Source of the DNA: a virus
Virus record (IMG/VR): IMGVR_UViG_3300031578_009723
Span: 1-27,540 of that record
DNA: 27,540 nucleotides
Strand: one strand, 5' to 3'
The notes beneath the pieces are model-generated. The model was not told the DNA's origin. It saw nothing but the letters and a program-made list of their open reading frames with translations, and searched no databases. Positions 12,849 through 27,350 of this stretch are shown one piece after another. A program made the translations under genes and the position numbers. The stretch's first letter is position 1. Each line of letters begins with the position of its first letter.

Positions 12849-13580
12849 TCACCTCACATTTTCGTAGACGATTGATTTTGTAAACGGCTCGATGTAAAAT
12901 TTGAAATATCTTTCTCTGTCAACATCATCCGTATCCATTATTTTTAAGGTCGATTGGGATACTTCAAGCTCACCATATCCTAATAAAAAAATGTTGAACT
13001 TTCCATTTTTAACTGGTATCCCAAACAACGCGGGATTTTCAGATTCAAAAAACTCATCTCTCATTTTTTGTAGTCTTGTAAATAAAGAGTTCTTATTAAC
13101 ATCAAGCATTAAGCAAAGTTTTCTATAGATCTCGTCCATTGCTTTATAACGAAATGCAACACCTTTGATTGTTACTTCGTTATTATTATCCAATGCAATA
13201 TAGGATTTCCTATCAATTGAAGAAACGAATGTTCTTAATACTTGCCTTTGTTCCAATGGAATGTGACCAATGTTTGTTACATGCAAAGGTCTTGTTAAAA
13301 TCAAACCATCGTATTGACGAATTACAATTTCATCATCTTGAATGTTATTTATATTAATATAGTCATTGATAATAGACTCGGTGGTACCCCTTAGTAGAGA
13401 TGTGATTCTTGGATTTTCTTTCATCATTTGTCCGATCATGATATTTCTTCCAATCTTATCTTCCGGATCAACATGTGAAAGATCATATCCCTTGTTTTTT
13501 AAAATAGTATAATGGCAGGCTTCGATATCATAAATCAAAACATCTCTCATAACTAATGGTAAATTTGGGTTTAGTTGCAT
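12849..13580 (-). CDS. Small protein resembling family-B DNA polymerase palm/thumb (tentative)
   Basis: A 243-residue protein in which several polymerase-like elements fall in order. YDIEACHYTIL (17-27) resembles motif A with Asp18. SLLRGTTESIINDYI (61-75) is in the place of the fingers helix. IRQYDGLIL (88-96) resembles motif C with a single Asp91. RKSYIAL (124-130) and VTIKGVAFRY (136-145) resemble the KKxY element and following strand of family-B polymerases. The rest (about 150-243) has no obvious match. There is no exonuclease domain, and the length is far below a normal polymerase. It could be a relic, a minimal polymerase or primase, or a chance likeness. The start relies on the hairpin-bridged ribosome site described separately. 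The gene before it ends at 13622 and the methyltransferase-like gene follows. Confidence 0.4.
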   Translation of the reverse strand: MQLNPNLPLVMRDVLIYDIEACHYTILKNKGYDLSHVDPEDKIGRNIMIGQMMKENPRITSLLRGTTESIINDYININNIQDDEIVIRQYDGLILTRPLHVTNIGHIPLEQRQVLRTFVSSIDRKSYIALDNNNEVTIKGVAFRYKAMDEIYRKLCLMLDVNKNSLFTRLQKMRDEFFESENPALFGIPVKNGKFNIFLLGYGELEVSQSTLKIMDTDDVDRERYFKFYIEPFTKSIVYENVR

Positions 13581-13624
13581 TGGGGTATGGGGTCAGGATT
13601 TTTACTCCCGACCCCAACTCCTTA
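13578..13624 (-). promoter_or_regulatory. Ribosome-binding site bridged by an RNA hairpin
   Basis: On the minus strand TAAGGAG (stop of the upstream gene plus SD, 13624-13618) is followed by TT, then a 10-bp stem with one G-U pair (GGGGTCGGGA / TCCTGACCCC, 13615-13606 and 13598-13589, seven-base loop), then ATACCCCA and the ATG. Unfolded, the SD is 37 bases from the ATG; with the hairpin looped out it is 10. T4 gene 25 is a known case of this arrangement. A competing 7-bp pairing, TTGGGGT (13617-13611) with ACCCCAA (13586-13580), would hide the start codon. Confidence 0.6.
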
Positions 13625-14728: not shown

Positions 14729-15445
14729 TTATCTTTTATTTACCAACGATTCTAAGTATGTGGCATTCTTCTGTAATTTGTGTTGATATTCCGCCATATA
14801 TTCTAACACAAAATCGCCTTCCCAATTATAACGATAGACCACATCTTTTACAAATCGTACTAAATTCAGGTCACCAACAGGGGTATTAAATGGCAGATGC
14901 TGCCCATGTCCTTTGGCTCGATTGGATAAATGGATGACTGATGTGTATTTCAAAAGAAAGGGTAATATTTTATTATCAAACCACAATTCTTCGATATGAC
15001 TTGTGTCAATTACCATTTTCGCATTTCTGTTGTCACTCCAGATTAAATACTCCACTATTTCTAATGGACTACGAAATTCTTTTTTACCTTTCCATCCGAA
15101 TGTTTCAATACACAATATGACTTGACTATGCACTCCATGAGTAAACTCAGGGATGAATGACGAAATTCCTTTATTCGGATGTATAACAAACTTGACACAA
15201 CCCGTTCTCTCAAATATCTCATTTACCATTGTGGTTATATCTTTCCGTGGTCGCTTTAGTGTATCTAATGGTAAGTGAGTAACTCTTACTTTTGTATTAT
15301 TTTCTTCTAAAGAATGTAAGATGTCATCTGAATTGATTTGATAATTTTCGTATTTATATAATGCAAGCTGAATACTTGACGGAATATTCTCTTTATAGTA
15401 TCTATCATCTTTACCAAATCCATATGAAATCGACACATTAATCAT
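14729..15445 (-). CDS. Xylose-isomerase-like TIM-barrel protein
   Basis: A 238-residue protein with the C-terminal pattern of the xylose-isomerase-like / AP-endonuclease-2 TIM-barrel superfamily. A metal-type Glu in CIETFGW (132-138) is followed by VIDTSHIEELWF with a DxxH strand-end pair, then SVIHLSNRAKGHGQHLPFNT with a further His, and a last strand FVLEYM (Glu near the C-terminus). These are the positions where superfamily members bind divalent metals to isomerise sugars or cut DNA at abasic sites. The likely function, sugar epimerase or endonuclease, is open. Its start overlaps the FolE2 stop as ATGA, so the two are translationally coupled. A joint pathway is inferred only from that coupling. 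Confidence 0.6.
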   Translation of the reverse strand: MINVSISYGFGKDDRYYKENIPSSIQLALYKYENYQINSDDILHSLEENNTKVRVTHLPLDTLKRPRKDITTMVNEIFERTGCVKFVIHPNKGISSFIPEFTHGVHSQVILCIETFGWKGKKEFRSPLEIVEYLIWSDNRNAKMVIDTSHIEELWFDNKILPFLLKYTSVIHLSNRAKGHGQHLPFNTPVGDLNLVRFVKDVVYRYNWEGDFVLEYMAEYQHKLQKNATYLESLVNKR

Positions 15446-16302
15446 AAGTACCTTCTTCCGTTGAAGCCTCCCGGCACTCCTTTCCAGTTAACTGCAATCG
15501 CTTCATGCGTATGAATTGATTCTTCGTGAATACATTTTACAATCCAATCTCTAATAGGCATTTGACTCAATGATTGTGAGATTATACGAATAGCATCTTC
15601 AACAAACATTGGATTTTCTGCTGCAACTCTTGCAATTTCCTGCTCATCAATTCTCTTGATTACTGGATACGGGAGAGTTTTAATGTTAGATTCAACCGCT
15701 TCAATAATATCCTCTAACCATATGTAATTATTTGGATCACACTCAATCAATATGTAAGCAAACGATCTTTGATTATGTGGATAACCTTTACTTTGATTCT
15801 CAGATAAATGCCCACATAGTTCTGCTGAGCATGGGCAATATGATGCGTATTGAATTGTTACCCCTTGAAAGAATCTGAATACATCTCCATCTTTTTCTTT
15901 ATATAACTGTCCTTCAAATTTACATTTATAATACAAGGGAAACCAATTATCTGATAAAATAGATTTTCGCATCAATGGCATTCTAAAATCAAACTTCATA
16001 AAACTTGCAGAACTCTCAACATTGGTTCTTACATCATCGAGTATTTGTCTTATCAATACATGTTTCAATGGTAAATCAAGATATTGCTTTAATGTCAACC
16101 CTAATCTAGACATTGAAATGCCTTTTGTTTTTTTATCAAGATTTGTTCTCATTGAAACATTTGCATTAAGCTGGTAAAATCCTCCACTTTTAAATTCTAG
16201 TTTAAAAGGAAGTTCAATATTCTCCACTCCAACTTGCATAATCGGCATTTCAATATTTGGAGCTGAGCATTGAACATCTGGCAAACATTCTTTATCTGTC
16301 AT
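15442..16302 (-). CDS. folE2: GTP cyclohydrolase FolE2 (type IB)
   Basis: GTP cyclohydrolase IB opens GTP and makes 7,8-dihydroneopterin triphosphate, the entry to folate and to 7-deazaguanine (preQ0) synthesis. The protein is 286 residues, close to the normal size. Family signatures are SYCPCSAE (Cys156 and Cys158, metal site) and PHNQRS (175-180), with the ENPMFVED glutamate near 229. In known phages the downstream enzymes QueD, QueE and QueC turn the product into modified DNA bases; none of these is in the window. A GGGAGGGG SD nine bases before the ATG lies in the upstream gene, and the start overlaps that gene's stop as TAATG. The N-terminal ~30 residues are extra to the core. Confidence 0.85.
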   Translation of the reverse strand: MTDKECLPDVQCSAPNIEMPIMQVGVENIELPFKLEFKSGGFYQLNANVSMRTNLDKKTKGISMSRLGLTLKQYLDLPLKHVLIRQILDDVRTNVESSASFMKFDFRMPLMRKSILSDNWFPLYYKCKFEGQLYKEKDGDVFRFFQGVTIQYASYCPCSAELCGHLSENQSKGYPHNQRSFAYILIECDPNNYIWLEDIIEAVESNIKTLPYPVIKRIDEQEIARVAAENPMFVEDAIRIISQSLSQMPIRDWIVKCIHEESIHTHEAIAVNWKGVPGGFNGRRYL

Positions 16303-22859: not shown

Positions 22860-23333
22860 TTATTCTCCTTGGTTCAATTGCATAGATATTGATCTTAGTT
22901 TTCTATACTCGACTTGATTTTTTGGTGGAGTATAAAAACAATCATCAAGATAATATGTCTTAATATTTGTTAGAAGCATCTCAAAATATTTTTGATCAAA
23001 CTTAACACCCTTTTTATAATCAGGCAAACAATATAAACATGTATCTGGATCTCTATTTGGATGATACCCGAATAATGTAATGTTGCTTACAAAGTTTTGC
23101 TCTGTCATTACCATGAATCCATTGATAAAAAACTGTGGATGTAAATATGTGATTTCATATACATTTTTATTTTTAATCATACGGGTTGGGGTGATTTGCC
23201 CCTCATAGATATATACTTTCTCTACGAGAGGCAAATCATTATCGTAACCCCATATAACTAATCGGTCGTCAACATAATCCATTGGTTTATGCCGCTCCCG
23301 TTTCTTCCAATAGTTCGACGAATGATTTCCCAT
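22860..23333 (-). CDS. E2-like ubiquitin-conjugating protein (tentative)
   Basis: A 157-residue protein whose second half resembles the core of ubiquitin E2 enzymes: a hydrophobic strand region, then GYHPNRDPDTCLYC (89-102), comparable to 'HPNI...G.ICL' with the catalytic Cys. The Cys would be Cys99 or Cys102. It is followed by a loop and a helix (FDQKYFEMLLTNIKTYYL), then DDCFYTPP near the end, where E2s have a helix and Pro-rich tail. The N-terminus is basic. Family-level knowledge: E2s take the modifier from E1 to a Cys, then pass it to a lysine. Prokaryotic E2-like proteins are divergent, so this is moderate at best. The start has GAGGAG five bases upstream and overlaps the preceding E1-like gene by 47 bases. 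Context, not sequence alone, drives the call. Confidence 0.45.
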   Translation of the reverse strand: MGNHSSNYWKKRERHKPMDYVDDRLVIWGYDNDLPLVEKVYIYEGQITPTRMIKNKNVYEITYLHPQFFINGFMVMTEQNFVSNITLFGYHPNRDPDTCLYCLPDYKKGVKFDQKYFEMLLTNIKTYYLDDCFYTPPKNQVEYRKLRSISMQLNQGE

Positions 23334-24204
23334 TTTCGCTCCTCACTGTAACTATGTAGTTTGAGACACCAGGTTGTAATTCAACTAGTTCCGAAAGTCT
23401 TTTCATCACATCCATTGAAGTGTTTAGACTTTTTACTGGAATCATTTCGTATTGAGTTTCTGCTACTTCTGGCATTTTATTAAATAACTTTTGCAGAATG
23501 CTTTGGGATGGTTTTTCTCCAACATAAACATCTATATGCTGGGTCTTGTTTAGTTCTAATATTGGTTTAATATTGTCCTCTATGCATTGGAGACGTTGTG
23601 ATAAATCACTCTCTTCATAAATAATATCTATTTTGTTTTCTAATGTTCTTTTGATTGCCTTACTCATCATAGATGGTACAATTTCAAGATCAATTCGTTG
23701 CACCTGATTATTTTTCATCATATCAAGTATTTCTTCACTATCAATCATCTGTGCTGCATAAAATGCTGCTTTGTTGATTTCAGGTTTTGATAATTGAATT
23801 GAATATGAGCCATCGTATGAGCAAGCGTTTTTGACTTGCTTTCTGCAATCTACCATCAGAACTTTCCTCGAGATATAAAATCTAATATCAATTTCATTAT
23901 CTCGATTGCACACAACATCTCTGCAATCAATTACAAGATTACATTGTGGTAAAAACGTCTTACCTTCAACATAGTGCTTGTTAATCTTAGTGACAGTAAC
24001 ATCATCATTTATTATATCTGCTAATGCATTGACCTTGCATTCTCCAACTTGTGAAGAATTATAGATAGATGAGAATACGTTTTTACTCTCAACTATATCT
24101 GGGTCAATTATTAATAACTCTTTTACACCGTCTAGTTCGGATATGTGTTTAGCTAGAAATCCACCTAACGTTCCCACTCCGATTACTGCCACTTTACGAA
24201 ACAC
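23287..24204 (-). CDS. Second E1-like (ThiF-family) protein, possibly pseudo-active
   Basis: A 305-residue ThiF/E1-type protein. The start is a GTG, nine bases after AAGGAG. The ATP-binding Rossmann start is VAVIGVGTLGG (5-15), followed by LLIIDPDIVESKN (30-42) with Asp34 and Asp36. The adenylation Lys is in GECKVNAL (Lys57), and the aspartate of 'vD' follows at VIDCRD (91-96). After VESKN it has VFSS where E1 enzymes have the Arg-Gln pair, so a key ATP-site arginine seems absent. Cys120 and Cys128 are candidate thiol sites. The C-terminal ~120 residues are extra and not recognised. It may be a partner subunit, like the non-adenylating member of the eukaryotic NAE1 or SAE1 pairs, but this is an inference. 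It follows the modifier gene. Confidence 0.7.
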   Translation of the reverse strand: MFRKVAVIGVGTLGGFLAKHISELDGVKELLIIDPDIVESKNVFSSIYNSSQVGECKVNALADIINDDVTVTKINKHYVEGKTFLPQCNLVIDCRDVVCNRDNEIDIRFYISRKVLMVDCRKQVKNACSYDGSYSIQLSKPEINKAAFYAAQMIDSEEILDMMKNNQVQRIDLEIVPSMMSKAIKRTLENKIDIIYEESDLSQRLQCIEDNIKPILELNKTQHIDVYVGEKPSQSILQKLFNKMPEVAETQYEMIPVKSLNTSMDVMKRLSELVELQPGVSNYIVTVRSENGKSFVELLEETGAA

Positions 24205-24231
24205 TAAGGTAATCTCCTTCCAAGTGGATTA

Positions 24232-24251
24232 GGGGGATCCGGAGATCCCCC
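24232..24251 (-). other. Very stable RNA hairpin with UCCG tetraloop after the modifier gene
   Basis: On the minus strand GGGGGATC-TCCG-GATCCCCC forms an 8-bp perfect stem closed by C(UCCG)G, a member of the stable UNCG tetraloop class. It starts 20 bases after the ubiquitin-like gene's stop and lies 12 bases before the next gene's SD. No U-run follows, so it is not a standard terminator. It could protect the upstream message end or lower read-through into the E1-like gene. Confidence 0.65.
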
Positions 24252-24270
24252 CTTTACCATCAAAGATGGA

Positions 24271-24744
24271 TTATCCCTTTTTTCCTGCTGGTTTTAGATA
24301 CTCAAGAGTATCACCCGGTTGCAGGAGATATTCGGCACCAACTTCCTTGCCGTTTACCAGACCAGTGGAAAGACGATCCACATTCAGGACTTCACGAAGG
24401 AATTCCCCGACTTCCTTGACACTCCGGCCGGCAACAGGGAAGTTACCAGAAGAGGCACCACAGGATACCTGAATTGTGGTTGTGGTCTTTTGCCCGAAGG
24501 CTGCACCTGGTTTTGTGAGGGTACTTTGAGCTTGGAATGCCACACCGCTCATTGCTGCAGGTTTTGCTGCGGCTGCTTTGGCTACTGTTGCTCCAGAAGC
24601 ACCGAATTTGGCAAGAATGGCTGCGACCACAGTATCCTTGGGTTTCTTGGTCATACCAGGGATAGCGAGTTCATCAACACACATTCTTTTAAGTTCGACT
24701 GCAGTTTTGGCTTCCAATTGATCTTTTGTAAAATTTGCTCCCAT
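24271..24744 (-). CDS. Ubiquitin-like modifier with SAP/Rho-N-like N-terminal head
   Basis: The start is the ATG at 24744, eight bases after AAGGAG (157 residues). Residues 5-47 (FTKDQL...ELKRMCVDELAIPG...TVVAAILAKFG) look like a SAP/Rho-N-type helical unit, often a DNA- or RNA-contacting module. An Ala/Lys/Gly linker (48-85) follows. Residues 86-157 form a beta-grasp: TTTTIQVSCG strand, SVKEVGEFLREVLNV helix, a GLVNGKEVG strand, LQPGDTLEYLKPAGKKG. The end matches the ThiS/MoaD/Prok-Ub style 'GDTLExxxPxGxKG' with a terminal glycine, so it needs no trimming before adenylation. The gene is visibly more GC-rich than its neighbours, consistent with high expression. Hairpins flank it and a candidate promoter motif precedes it. 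The modifier role is inferred from the fold-level pattern and context. Confidence 0.72.
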   Translation of the reverse strand: MGANFTKDQLEAKTAVELKRMCVDELAIPGMTKKPKDTVVAAILAKFGASGATVAKAAAAKPAAMSGVAFQAQSTLTKPGAAFGQKTTTTIQVSCGASSGNFPVAGRSVKEVGEFLREVLNVDRLSTGLVNGKEVGAEYLLQPGDTLEYLKPAGKKG

Positions 24745-24776
24745 TTTCAAATCTCCTTGTTACATTTAGTTTGTTG

Positions 24777-24787
24777 TTACTTTGTTC
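24777..24787 (-). promoter_or_regulatory. Candidate promoter motif GAACAAAGTAA upstream of modifier gene
   Basis: On the minus strand GAACAAAGTAA differs by one base from the two exact GAACAAAATAA copies (9071, 10357). It lies between the hairpin at 24793-24809 and the modifier's SD, 32 bases from the ATG. This fits separate transcription of an abundant small gene. It is a weaker match and could be chance in an AT-rich region. Confidence 0.3.
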
Positions 24788-24792
24788 ACGAT

Positions 24793-24809
24793 GTGGTCAA
24801 AATGACCAC
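24793..24809 (-). other. Short hairpin after the first E1-like gene
   Basis: A perfect 7-bp stem, GTGGTCA/TGACCAC, with a three-base loop overlaps the TAG stop of the E1-like gene. No T-run follows in transcription direction, so it is unlikely to be a full terminator. Together with the hairpin at 24232-24251 it frames the modifier gene. Confidence 0.45.
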
Positions 24810-25501
24810 TACTGCTTTACGATTCGAATCTTCGAGTTGGAGTTCATACTTAAAATATCAAAGTAGACCTCCGACCGATCATGCTGATCTTTTACAAATG
24901 AGTTGTAGAATAACCAGCACATCAGCGTTGCAACGCCCAGATTTGTGAAATATAACTGGGGTTCCGATTGAGATAATTCCTCACATGACATCTCATCTGG
25001 TAACTTATCGTCGGGATTTGCAATTTCAGGATGATATGCACATAGATCAGGTGTTAAATCACAACCCCCTTTCCTGACATAAAGTTGTGCATTTCCATCC
25101 GTTAATTCATTCCCACCAGAAACAATGGTAACATCGTTCAGATTCTTACAGTAATTATTAATTATCATTCTGGATTTGTGATTGTCAACACATATAAATA
25201 CTATTGTATTTTCTTTGATAACTTGGGCTACATTTGCCTCGTTGATATAAGAATCAAATACATCAAATGCAATATTGCTGAATTTCATAGCAAGCTCATT
25301 GGCTTTTGTTTCAGCTTTATTACCCATTCCGCTAAATTCTTGACGTGCAAAATTCTTCATTTCATATTGATCGCCGTCAACTAAAAGTATGTTACTTTCA
25401 TAGTCTTGAGAAAAGTTTAGGAATCGACACAATCTTTCAGCCAAAATTGTGCCGACACCACCTAAACCAATAATTGTAATGTTAATGCATTGAGCCATCA
25501 T
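24809..25501 (-). CDS. E1-like ThiF-family adenylating enzyme (PRTRC-ThiF-like)
   Basis: A 230-residue E1-type enzyme, which in this family adenylates the modifier C-terminus with ATP. Motifs are complete: IIGLGGVG (10-17); LVDGDQYEMKNFARQ (40-54) with Asp42, Asp44, Asn50 and the Arg53-Gln54 pair; KAETKANEL with Lys66; CVDNHKSR (104-111) with the metal-type Asp106. Later SCEELSQSEPQLYFTN (172-187) recalls the 'SCxxxEAL..Q.LFxN' block of PRTRC-system ThiF proteins, with Cys173 a candidate thiol. There is no separate UFD-like domain. It overlaps the JAB gene by 20 bases, and GGAGG six bases before ATG-ATG supports its start. Among the two E1-like proteins this is the one expected to be catalytic. 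Confidence 0.82.
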   Translation of the reverse strand: MMAQCINITIIGLGGVGTILAERLCRFLNFSQDYESNILLVDGDQYEMKNFARQEFSGMGNKAETKANELAMKFSNIAFDVFDSYINEANVAQVIKENTIVFICVDNHKSRMIINNYCKNLNDVTIVSGGNELTDGNAQLYVRKGGCDLTPDLCAYHPEIANPDDKLPDEMSCEELSQSEPQLYFTNLGVATLMCWLFYNSFVKDQHDRSEVYFDILSMNSNSKIRIVKQ

Positions 25502-27350
25502 TACCGCCTCCGAAAACCTTTCTCATTTTATCTATAATAGTTTGACTAAAAGGTTTTGGCTGATAGGGGCCTTTTTCAGGATCGGGGATGCGTTCCAATG
25601 TTCTGTCCGCTTCAGCTGCTGCATCTAATATAGCTTGATGCTCCTCGTCTGATTGATCGAGAAATGCTCCACTGTCTGCTTGACTCTGATTTAATGAGTC
25701 AGTCATTTGAACTGAAAATATCATTTGACAACGTGGGCATTTCCCTTTTTCTGCAACTGCCTCGCTTAAGACCTCTATATGACAACGTGGGCATTCTATT
25801 TTTTCTTCTCGCTCATCATCGAAGAAAAGGTCCACTAAACCATAACACCACGGACATTCATTAGCGTTAAGCATGTCATCCTCAGTAAAATAATGTTTAC
25901 AATGAGGACATTGCCACTCTATATCATCATCATCATCATCAGATACCTTAACTGTATCTGGCAATAGAGTTTGACAATAAGGACAACATTCATCCGAAGA
26001 CAATTTCAAGAATGTGTTTCCACATTCAAGACATTGCATATACCCTTGTTGATCCGGCATTTCCATAGATTGTGCCGAATTTAATGCAGCTTCCCTATCA
26101 TCTATAACTTGGGGATCCCCCACTGAATGATTATTTTTTAGATCCTTTTCATCTATATAGTTCAAATACATATCTGTCTTACATGTTGGGCATTTTGGTT
26201 CTGCATCAGTTGTGGTAAAGAGAACTTTACATTTTTCACAGTGATACATTTCCTCTTGATAATCAACGTCCTCCATCTCATCCATAATTTTGAAAACACG
26301 ATTTTTACATGATAGACAGGGATTGCTTGGTTCGCAGTCTTTTGCCTTTTCTGGGGTGACAACAGCTGGCGGAGTTACTGGAGCTGTTCCAACGAATGGA
26401 ATCTGTTTCTGTGCACCAGGTGCAACAAATCTTCCAGCTTGCTTCCATAAATCTCCATCATAATGACCACCCCAATTATTCCAACGACTACCATTCCAAC
26501 GACTACCATGACCTTGCCAACGATTACCACCATACAATCCACCATAGTATCCACTATAGTTATATGTATATGTACCTCTTTCTACAAGGTTCATCCATTT
26601 TGGATTGAATTGGCGTTTGCTTGCTGATACTTTAAATAGGTATCTCTTGTCGAGTTTCCTTTTTGAATATGCACTTTTGCTGCTGGCAGCTTCATCTAAA
26701 ACCATTTTACTGGTTTTCGGATCAACTTTATAGACTCTTGTTGAATAATAGACTTCTTCTTCATCAATATCTTTTGTCTTTGAAAGACCCAGCATATAAT
26801 CTTCTGGGTTAACAATGAATCGACTTCCGTTGGCGACTATTGATGCAGATAGACTGAACTCTTCGCTCATAACATTACCATAAGTAATATGGAGCCCATC
26901 GAATGTTTTTTCATCTGCATCATCTACACCCGAGTGGAATGCTGAAAAGTTTGCATGACTGTGAATTGTTCCGATCATGGTAAATCCTTCAACCGTAACA
27001 CCTCGATTGTAGTCACATGCAGCTGCGGTCACTTTCTGGGTTGGGGGAACGACTTTATACTTACCCGTTTTCTCGTTATAGAATAATAGCACAATAGCTT
27101 CACCGCCAAACTTCTCAAAGACTGCTTTAAAAAACTCAAGGACTTTAGCTCCATATTGTGCTGGCAATGGATTAATATACATTCGTGCCATTGTATTGAC
27201 ACTTTGCAATATTGATATGTTTTTGACTGGGGCGATACTTTCCATCACCCCAATCTTTTTCTTCAAGAAAATTCCCTCTTTGGCGACAATATAATATATA
27301 TCATCATCGGGAAGTTCTTGAGTTCCATCATTTACAACAACATTGAACAT
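25482..27350 (-). CDS. JAB/JAMM peptidase with Tyr/Gly/Trp-rich linker and zinc-ribbon array
   Basis: A 622-residue protein. Residues about 70-190 form a JAB/MPN+ domain with a complete JAMM set: Glu84 (GGEAIVLL), His130, His132, Ser140 and Asp143 (HSHANFSAFHSGVDD). This is a zinc isopeptidase fold that removes or matures ubiquitin-like modifiers. Residues 258-305 are Tyr/Gly/Trp/Asn/Arg-rich and probably disordered. Four CxxC...CxxC zinc ribbons follow (Cys371/374/387/390; 440/443/456/459; 481/484/499/502; 520/523/538/541), plus a lone CxxC at 345/348. A six-Asp run lies at 471-476. The ribbons may bind substrate, DNA or RNA; an E3-like role is possible but not shown. AAAGGAG precedes the ATG. 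The start overlaps the stop of the preceding cut-off gene (TAATG). Confidence 0.85.
   Translation of the reverse strand: MFNVVVNDGTQELPDDDIYYIVAKEGIFLKKKIGVMESIAPVKNISILQSVNTMARMYINPLPAQYGAKVLEFFKAVFEKFGGEAIVLLFYNEKTGKYKVVPPTQKVTAAACDYNRGVTVEGFTMIGTIHSHANFSAFHSGVDDADEKTFDGLHITYGNVMSEEFSLSASIVANGSRFIVNPEDYMLGLSKTKDIDEEEVYYSTRVYKVDPKTSKMVLDEAASSKSAYSKRKLDKRYLFKVSASKRQFNPKWMNLVERGTYTYNYSGYYGGLYGGNRWQGHGSRWNGSRWNNWGGHYDGDLWKQAGRFVAPGAQKQIPFVGTAPVTPPAVVTPEKAKDCEPSNPCLSCKNRVFKIMDEMEDVDYQEEMYHCEKCKVLFTTTDAEPKCPTCKTDMYLNYIDEKDLKNNHSVGDPQVIDDREAALNSAQSMEMPDQQGYMQCLECGNTFLKLSSDECCPYCQTLLPDTVKVSDDDDDDIEWQCPHCKHYFTEDDMLNANECPWCYGLVDLFFDDEREEKIECPRCHIEVLSEAVAEKGKCPRCQMIFSVQMTDSLNQSQADSGAFLDQSDEEHQAILDAAAEADRTLERIPDPEKGPYQPKPFSQTIIDKMRKVFGGGNDGSMH
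25923..25940 (-). repeat. Six-copy ATC (GAT) trinucleotide run
   Basis: Six tandem ATC units on the plus strand encode six Asp in the JAB protein (residues 471-476), between the second and third zinc ribbons. It may be a slippage-prone site and a flexible acidic spacer. Confidence 0.7.
26478..26507 (-). repeat. Tandem 15-bp repeat in JAB linker
   Basis: Two head-to-tail 15-base copies (attccaacgactacc) encode the duplicated Asn-Gly-Ser-Arg-Trp unit (seen as GSRWNGSRWN) in the Tyr/Gly/Trp-rich linker. A further diverged copy (NRWQGHGSRW) lies beside it in the protein. Such repeats suggest growth of the linker by slippage or unequal exchange. Confidence 0.75.

Follow-up and report, generated by a model that had tools for sequence, protein, structure and literature searches.

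A strong hairpin lies between the Shine-Dalgarno (SD) sequence and the start codon of a polymerase-like gene in the IMG/VR virus record IMGVR_UViG_3300031578_009723, of which we analysed positions 1 to 27,540 (“the window”, i.e., the whole stretch of 27,540 nt), and this element is probably a conserved, locus-specific split ribosome-binding site of the kind known from genes 25 and 38 of phage T4 and from E. coli thrS. In the mechanism that we propose, the hairpin would be looped out of the path of the ribosome, leaving the SD effectively ~8 nt, and the stop codon of the upstream gene ~12 nt, from the AUG; a 30S subunit that is free, or that has stayed behind after a ribosome finished the upstream gene, would pair with the SD and would reach the AUG with the stem not unwound. 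Under such a scheme, the ribosome would accommodate the folded stem, and initiation at ATG 13580 would depend on the GGAG SD.

The junction in the window, its genes and its phage

On the minus strand, the junction reads, in order, UAA, GGAG, an 11-bp hairpin (13616-13588), 7 nt and ATG (Table 1). The SD, the hairpin and the ATG of an earlier note on this DNA were all recovered where that note had placed them, with 37 nt between SD and ATG in the linear sequence. With the 29-nt stem-loop folded out, the spacing falls to 8 nt; that the stem-loop restores the spacing, as had been claimed, holds, while the sizes shift (27 nt looped out and 10 nt left by the earlier count). The gap from stop codon to ATG is 41 nt when linear and ~12 nt when folded.

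Table 1. Features of the stop-start junction, in minus-strand order.
Feature	Positions	Strand	Basis and remarks
Upstream ORF, 252 aa	13622..14380	minus	ORF list; UAA stop 13624-13622 adjoins the SD
UAAGGAG, stop codon plus Shine-Dalgarno (GGAG 13621-13618)	13618..13624	minus	sequence; anti-SD duplex
Hairpin 5' arm, UGGGGUCGGGA	13606..13616	minus	folding; pair probabilities 0.92-1.0
Hairpin loop, GUAAAAA	13599..13605	minus	folding; length and sequence vary among relatives
Hairpin 3' arm, UCCUGACCCCA	13588..13598	minus	folding
Spacer UACCCCA, from stem to start codon, without U tract	13581..13587	minus	sequence
243-aa family-B DNA polymerase palm/thumb-like protein, ATG 13580-13578	12849..13580	minus	predicted fold; conserved start

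The fold is exceptional for its surroundings. The 48-nt junction stretch has a minimum free energy (MFE) of -24.8 kcal/mol, against a mean of -11.6 for shuffled sequences (z -5.16; 0/200 shuffles equal), and a core stem of -20 kcal/mol was reached only at the junction hairpin among 2750 41-nt segments sampled on the minus strand, no further sampled segment of either contig strand attaining it. The best anti-SD duplex upstream of the stem amounts to -8.5 kcal/mol, and an anti-SD duplex scan detected no second SD near ATG 13580 downstream of the stem, in agreement with the claim that the only good SD lies before the stem. The MFE structure of the window additionally pairs two Gs of the SD and the AUG, which would slow the binding of free 30S subunits. 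The earlier note had also envisaged a switch, in which a competing 7-bp pairing (13617-13611 with 13586-13580) would cover the start codon. Such a pairing is possible on paper, but at -7.8 vs. -21.3 kcal/mol it is ~13 kcal/mol weaker than the main stem, its pair probability is ~0, and the switch role is left unsupported.

It is extremely unlikely that the gene starts instead at the internal ATG 13550, a choice that would make the hairpin irrelevant. An in-frame ATG does exist at 13550-13548, but no SD precedes it, most relatives are devoid of an ATG at that position, and the N-terminus read from 13580, M-[KQE]-[IL]-N, is positionally conserved in relatives, with N3 invariant (30-sequence alignment). 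On the other side of the junction, the C-terminus of the upstream protein (LQIDNVII..) is conserved in relatives as well.

The AlphaFold2 model of the 243-aa protein (pLDDT 89.7) matches family-B DNA polymerases and the herpesvirus primase-associated polymerase-like subunit over 225-239 residues, with Z scores of 10.5-12.4 (herpesvirus helicase-primase chain 12.4, KOD 12.2, E. coli Pol II 11.6, RB69 11.4), while its best viral fold match is G4KKL4 (TM 0.72); the residues D17, E19, D90 and K138 are invariant in the alignment. Judging from this model, the protein is a predicted stand-alone, minimal family-B polymerase palm/thumb without the exonuclease domain, which gives substance to the label “polymerase-like” of the earlier note. 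A Pfam search returned no match for it, and it matches one PHROG, of unknown function. We also considered the upstream protein as the missing polymerase domain, an idea that was rejected, its predicted fold having no clear match in the PDB (best Z 3.5).

The window further encodes homologues of the beta and beta' subunits of RNA polymerase and a large terminase, and contigs of relatives reach 248 kb: the group consists of large uncultured tailed phages. No named phage matched at the DNA or protein level at E 0.01, S6-like Staphylococcus jumbo phages yielding weak protein matches only (E 0.03, 26%); S6 itself has an ordinary SD and no hairpin. No relative was found among 84,980 genomes.

Other genes of the window deserve mention in their own right. 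Two ThiF/E1-like proteins (24809-25501 and 23287-24204; Pfam ThiF) are encoded within 23287-27350 on the minus strand, next to a 622-aa protein that weakly matches Prok-JAB and one of 159 aa whose C-terminus is GKKG; together, these genes form a possible phage ubiquitin-like conjugation cassette. A type I GTP cyclohydrolase, FolE2 (15442-16302, minus strand; Pfam GCHY-1, E 1e-62), possibly serves deazapurine DNA modification. As for RNA structure, an 18-bp stem of -27 kcal/mol at 23238-23192 (minus strand), located within the coding ORF 23333-22860, is the strongest of the window if loops of up to ~110 nt are permitted, and another intergenic GC hairpin (GGGGGAUCUCCGGAUCCCCC) occupies 24270-24205 (minus strand) and is followed by an ordinary SD close to the next start.

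The junction in related phages

Two scans of IMG/VR yielded 43 and 80 loci, corresponding to 70 distinct junctions, with all relatives being metagenomic contigs. A strong hairpin occupies the same gap in ~60 of these 70 junctions, including almost all those of the main clade, whose proteins are ~48-98% identical to that of the window. Among the 56 junctions with a gap of at least 30 nt, the core stem is better than in all 60 dinucleotide shuffles in 50 cases. Conservation of the stem in relatives, a check that had been set beforehand, is thus strongly positive. Pairing is kept, whereas sequence and size are not: the hairpins span 20-95 nt, many of them with inner branches, and the loop of L070, whose protein is 83% identical to that of the window, is unrelated to the window's loop. 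Compensatory changes accompany this turnover. In the two clades that could be aligned, both with an SD mostly downstream of the stem, double changes affect 11/14 and 6/16 pairs, counts that 0/500 shuffles equalled and that slid controls did not approach; the stems of the window and of L069 differ by two double changes.

Variation in length is almost entirely confined to the hairpin, gap length and hairpin span being correlated with a rho of 0.97, while the flanks remain near-constant (stop-to-stem mostly 4-9 nt, stem-to-ATG mostly 6-15 nt). Between sister phages, spans differ by 30-60 nt and flanks stay within a few nt, as illustrated by L077/L078 (72/32 nt), L069/L070 (28/67 nt), L081/L102 (62/29 nt) and L101/L111 (61/26 nt). 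On the protein tree, the long/short state of the hairpin has switched at least 11 times. If the element is a split ribosome-binding site, selection would act on the presence and the position of a fold-out structure, not on its sequence or size, so that hairpin length and inner structure would drift or get replaced.

In the ordinary genes of these phages, 3-11 nt separate the SD from the ATG (85/88). At 33 junctions with an upstream SD, the linear distance is 30-105 nt, and folding brings it to 6-16 nt in all but one of them (32/33). Across the 56 junctions, the SD lies only upstream of the stem in 34 cases (including L092, an artefact due to a later insert, which counts as having none under a looser cut-off), only downstream in 8, and is not clear in 14, with no junction having both. 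With the looser, weak-SD cut-off, the numbers become ~33-36 upstream, ~12 downstream and ~11 without a clear SD. At face value, the two positions exclude each other, but after correction for descent the exclusivity is not significant (sign test on 4 independent pairs of starred branches), owing to the few independent switches on the tree. Where the SD is downstream, the distance from stem to ATG widens to 12-15 nt, which makes room for it. Pairing of the SD with the opposite flank did not exceed that with permuted flanks (310/500 for the upstream class, a negative result, and a weak 31/500 for the downstream class), and sequestration of the SD by the opposite flank was discarded.

The ~12 junctions with a downstream SD and the ~11 without any SD keep an equally strong hairpin, hence bridging alone fails to explain its conservation. 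The distance between stop and start offers a broader regularity: once folded, it is 22 nt or less in 49/56 junctions (mostly 12-22 nt), compared with 7/45 control junctions. In the relatives without a gap, stop and start abut or overlap, a likeness to termination-reinitiation, even though usual coupled pairs overlap and the window has a linear gap of 41 nt. Reinitiation in E. coli declines sharply as the distance grows, most of it being gone at +38 nt (PMC10666635), so that coupling would be mostly lost over a linear gap of 41 nt but might survive a folded one of 12 nt. Stop-to-start proximity fits as a rule covering all SD classes, and in our view the role of the hairpin is to hold the AUG close to the upstream stop and to any SD present. 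Translation of the 243-aa gene would then be coupled to that of the upstream gene.

Uniqueness, possible exchange and possible recognition of the hairpin

The arrangement of an SD, a stem and a start without proximal SD occurs once per contig, at this very junction, in two relatives of 248 and 223 kb (338 and 277 ORFs), in the close relative G006 and in the window, for which 85, 80, 12 and 5 intergenic gaps were scanned, respectively. These loci have another recurring strong stem (~10405-10375 in the window), after which come a U tract (U7-8 in most cases) and a gene with its own SD; this one is a terminator. At the junction, by comparison, the longest U run after the stem is of at most 3 in 46/56 cases, and an intrinsic terminator was rejected for the window, where UACCCCA follows the stem while the control terminator of the same genome has U7. 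Given the single occurrence per genome and the missing U tract, the element is neither a genome-wide feature nor a terminator.

A stem of 11 bp, such as that of the window, is short for RNase III. This weighs against mRNA processing, one form of a wider alternative in which the hairpin would be a terminator, an attenuator or a processing or 3'-end-protecting element, with the downstream gene translated without the upstream SD. GC-rich hairpins after a stop codon are in keeping with such a role, as are the ten relatives with a run of at least 4 U between stem and start, and a tRNA-Ile gene located in the gap of L139 would be excised from the mRNA. Yet, beyond the scarcity of U runs, neither the constant flanks nor the presence of the SD upstream when none is found downstream would be expected, and we regard this alternative as very unlikely.

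The content of the gap may also be exchangeable. In L087, the gap from the stop to the ATG at 2998 contains two hairpins in tandem, the second being 88% identical to that of L097 over ~84 nt, from hairpin to hairpin, while the proteins of the two phages are 59% identical and the flanking genes ~64-69%. In L139, an intact tRNA-Ile(UAU) gene (1444-1517, 71.9 bits) fills the slot from stop to start, and the sisters L130 and L133 differ by a 139-nt insert. These cases would suit a palindromic insert, mobile or exchangeable, that does no more than escape counter-selection by folding away. Against this, the hairpin is near-universal in the main clade, the arrangement is absent elsewhere in the genome, and the palindrome of the window is unrepeated within the window; as loss of the hairpin is rare, it is probably not only tolerated, which makes the explanation unlikely. 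A REP/RAYT or MITE-like palindrome was likewise rejected, the stem motif being found once in the window and in 23 IMG/VR stretches, two of which belong to contigs of near relatives (L002/L007). Decayed tRNAs as the origin of the complex hairpins were dismissed too: only L139 scores, and at E 10 the gaps of the nine other loci searched gave no match to a tRNA.

Some subgroups carry inner motifs, namely a CACAGGCCC bulge, AUCACGGUYCGGCUCC, and GUAUGCUUCG..AAGCGAGUGCCA. A bulge close to CACAGGCCC recurs within otherwise different hairpins (L082, L084, L089, L090, L091; also L077 and L117), located on the inner stem's 3' side for one group and on its 5' side for the other. Matches of motifs B and C in IMG/VR are limited to this phage group, and motif A is found in 24 IMG/VR stretches, 4 of them from this group and the others about as many as expected by chance. 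The conserved motifs, along with the persistence of the hairpin where bridging is unneeded and the precedents of thrS and T4 gp43, could point to an operator bound by a phage protein (possibly the polymerase-like protein, as for gp43) or by another ligand, of which the split site would be the regulated form, as in thrS. However, the window hairpin has no inner motif, its loop is not shared with L070, so a conserved recognition loop was not found, and the 7-bp alternative is too weak; a known RNA family was excluded for the window and 12 loci by the lack of any Rfam match at gathering score. We consider an operator quite unlikely.

Taken with the L087/L097 similarity and the tRNA gene of L139, the recurring motifs suggest, and this is the least certain of our conclusions, that the hairpins are modules that can be replaced and may have their own functions. 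A bolder, unlikely extension is that the gap is reserved for structured RNAs that phages exchange with one another (plain stems, elements with several branches and conserved motifs, even a tRNA gene); these would lie within a ribosome-binding site that keeps working, and some would sense ligands or proteins and thereby switch the polymerase-like gene.

Known split sites and what the junction means

The SD of thrS adjoins its AUG. The long hairpin of thrS lies between two ribosome-binding parts, as does that of the window, and is accommodated without unfolding (PMC3936740); according to the title of a 1998 paper, it is essential for autoregulation, whereas an operator role is only a candidate here. 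In T4, a hairpin between SD and AUG reduces the spacing from 27 to 11 nt for gene 25 and from 22 to 5 nt for gene 38, and destabilising a T4 split-site hairpin lowers initiation (PMC3014915). By the measure used here, the T4 stem has 7 bp and ends 8 nt from the AUG. In genes 25 and 38, the stem sets SD and AUG at a spacing that allows initiation, and the present one would work likewise; the joining of SD and start in the manner of gene 25, as put forward in the earlier note, is supported by the conserved stem and the restored spacing. The differences are equally clear: the T4 stem, rich in A and U, is contained in the end of gene 26, the stop codon of which overlaps the start codon, and the arrangement is limited to close T-even phages (according to a review), whereas the present stem is rich in G and C and falls between the two cistrons, the SD comes directly after the upstream stop, the gene is unrelated, and spans vary from 20 to 95 nt with the sequence freely replaced. 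T4 gp43 is a further parallel, i.e., a hairpin at the ribosome-binding site of a family-B-polymerase-like gene, but its hairpin is upstream of that site and the protein recognises its conserved loop, while the loops are not conserved here.

Very few genes are known to have a ribosome-binding site split by a hairpin. This one junction provides about sixty natural variants, with hairpins of 20-95 nt and an SD before the stem, after it or absent, in addition to relatives without a gap. They make it possible to ask what size of structure between SD and AUG a 30S subunit can accept, and whether the upstream gene stays coupled when the hairpin folds. Start-site predictors that view only ~15 nt upstream would call such genes SD-less or misplace their start.
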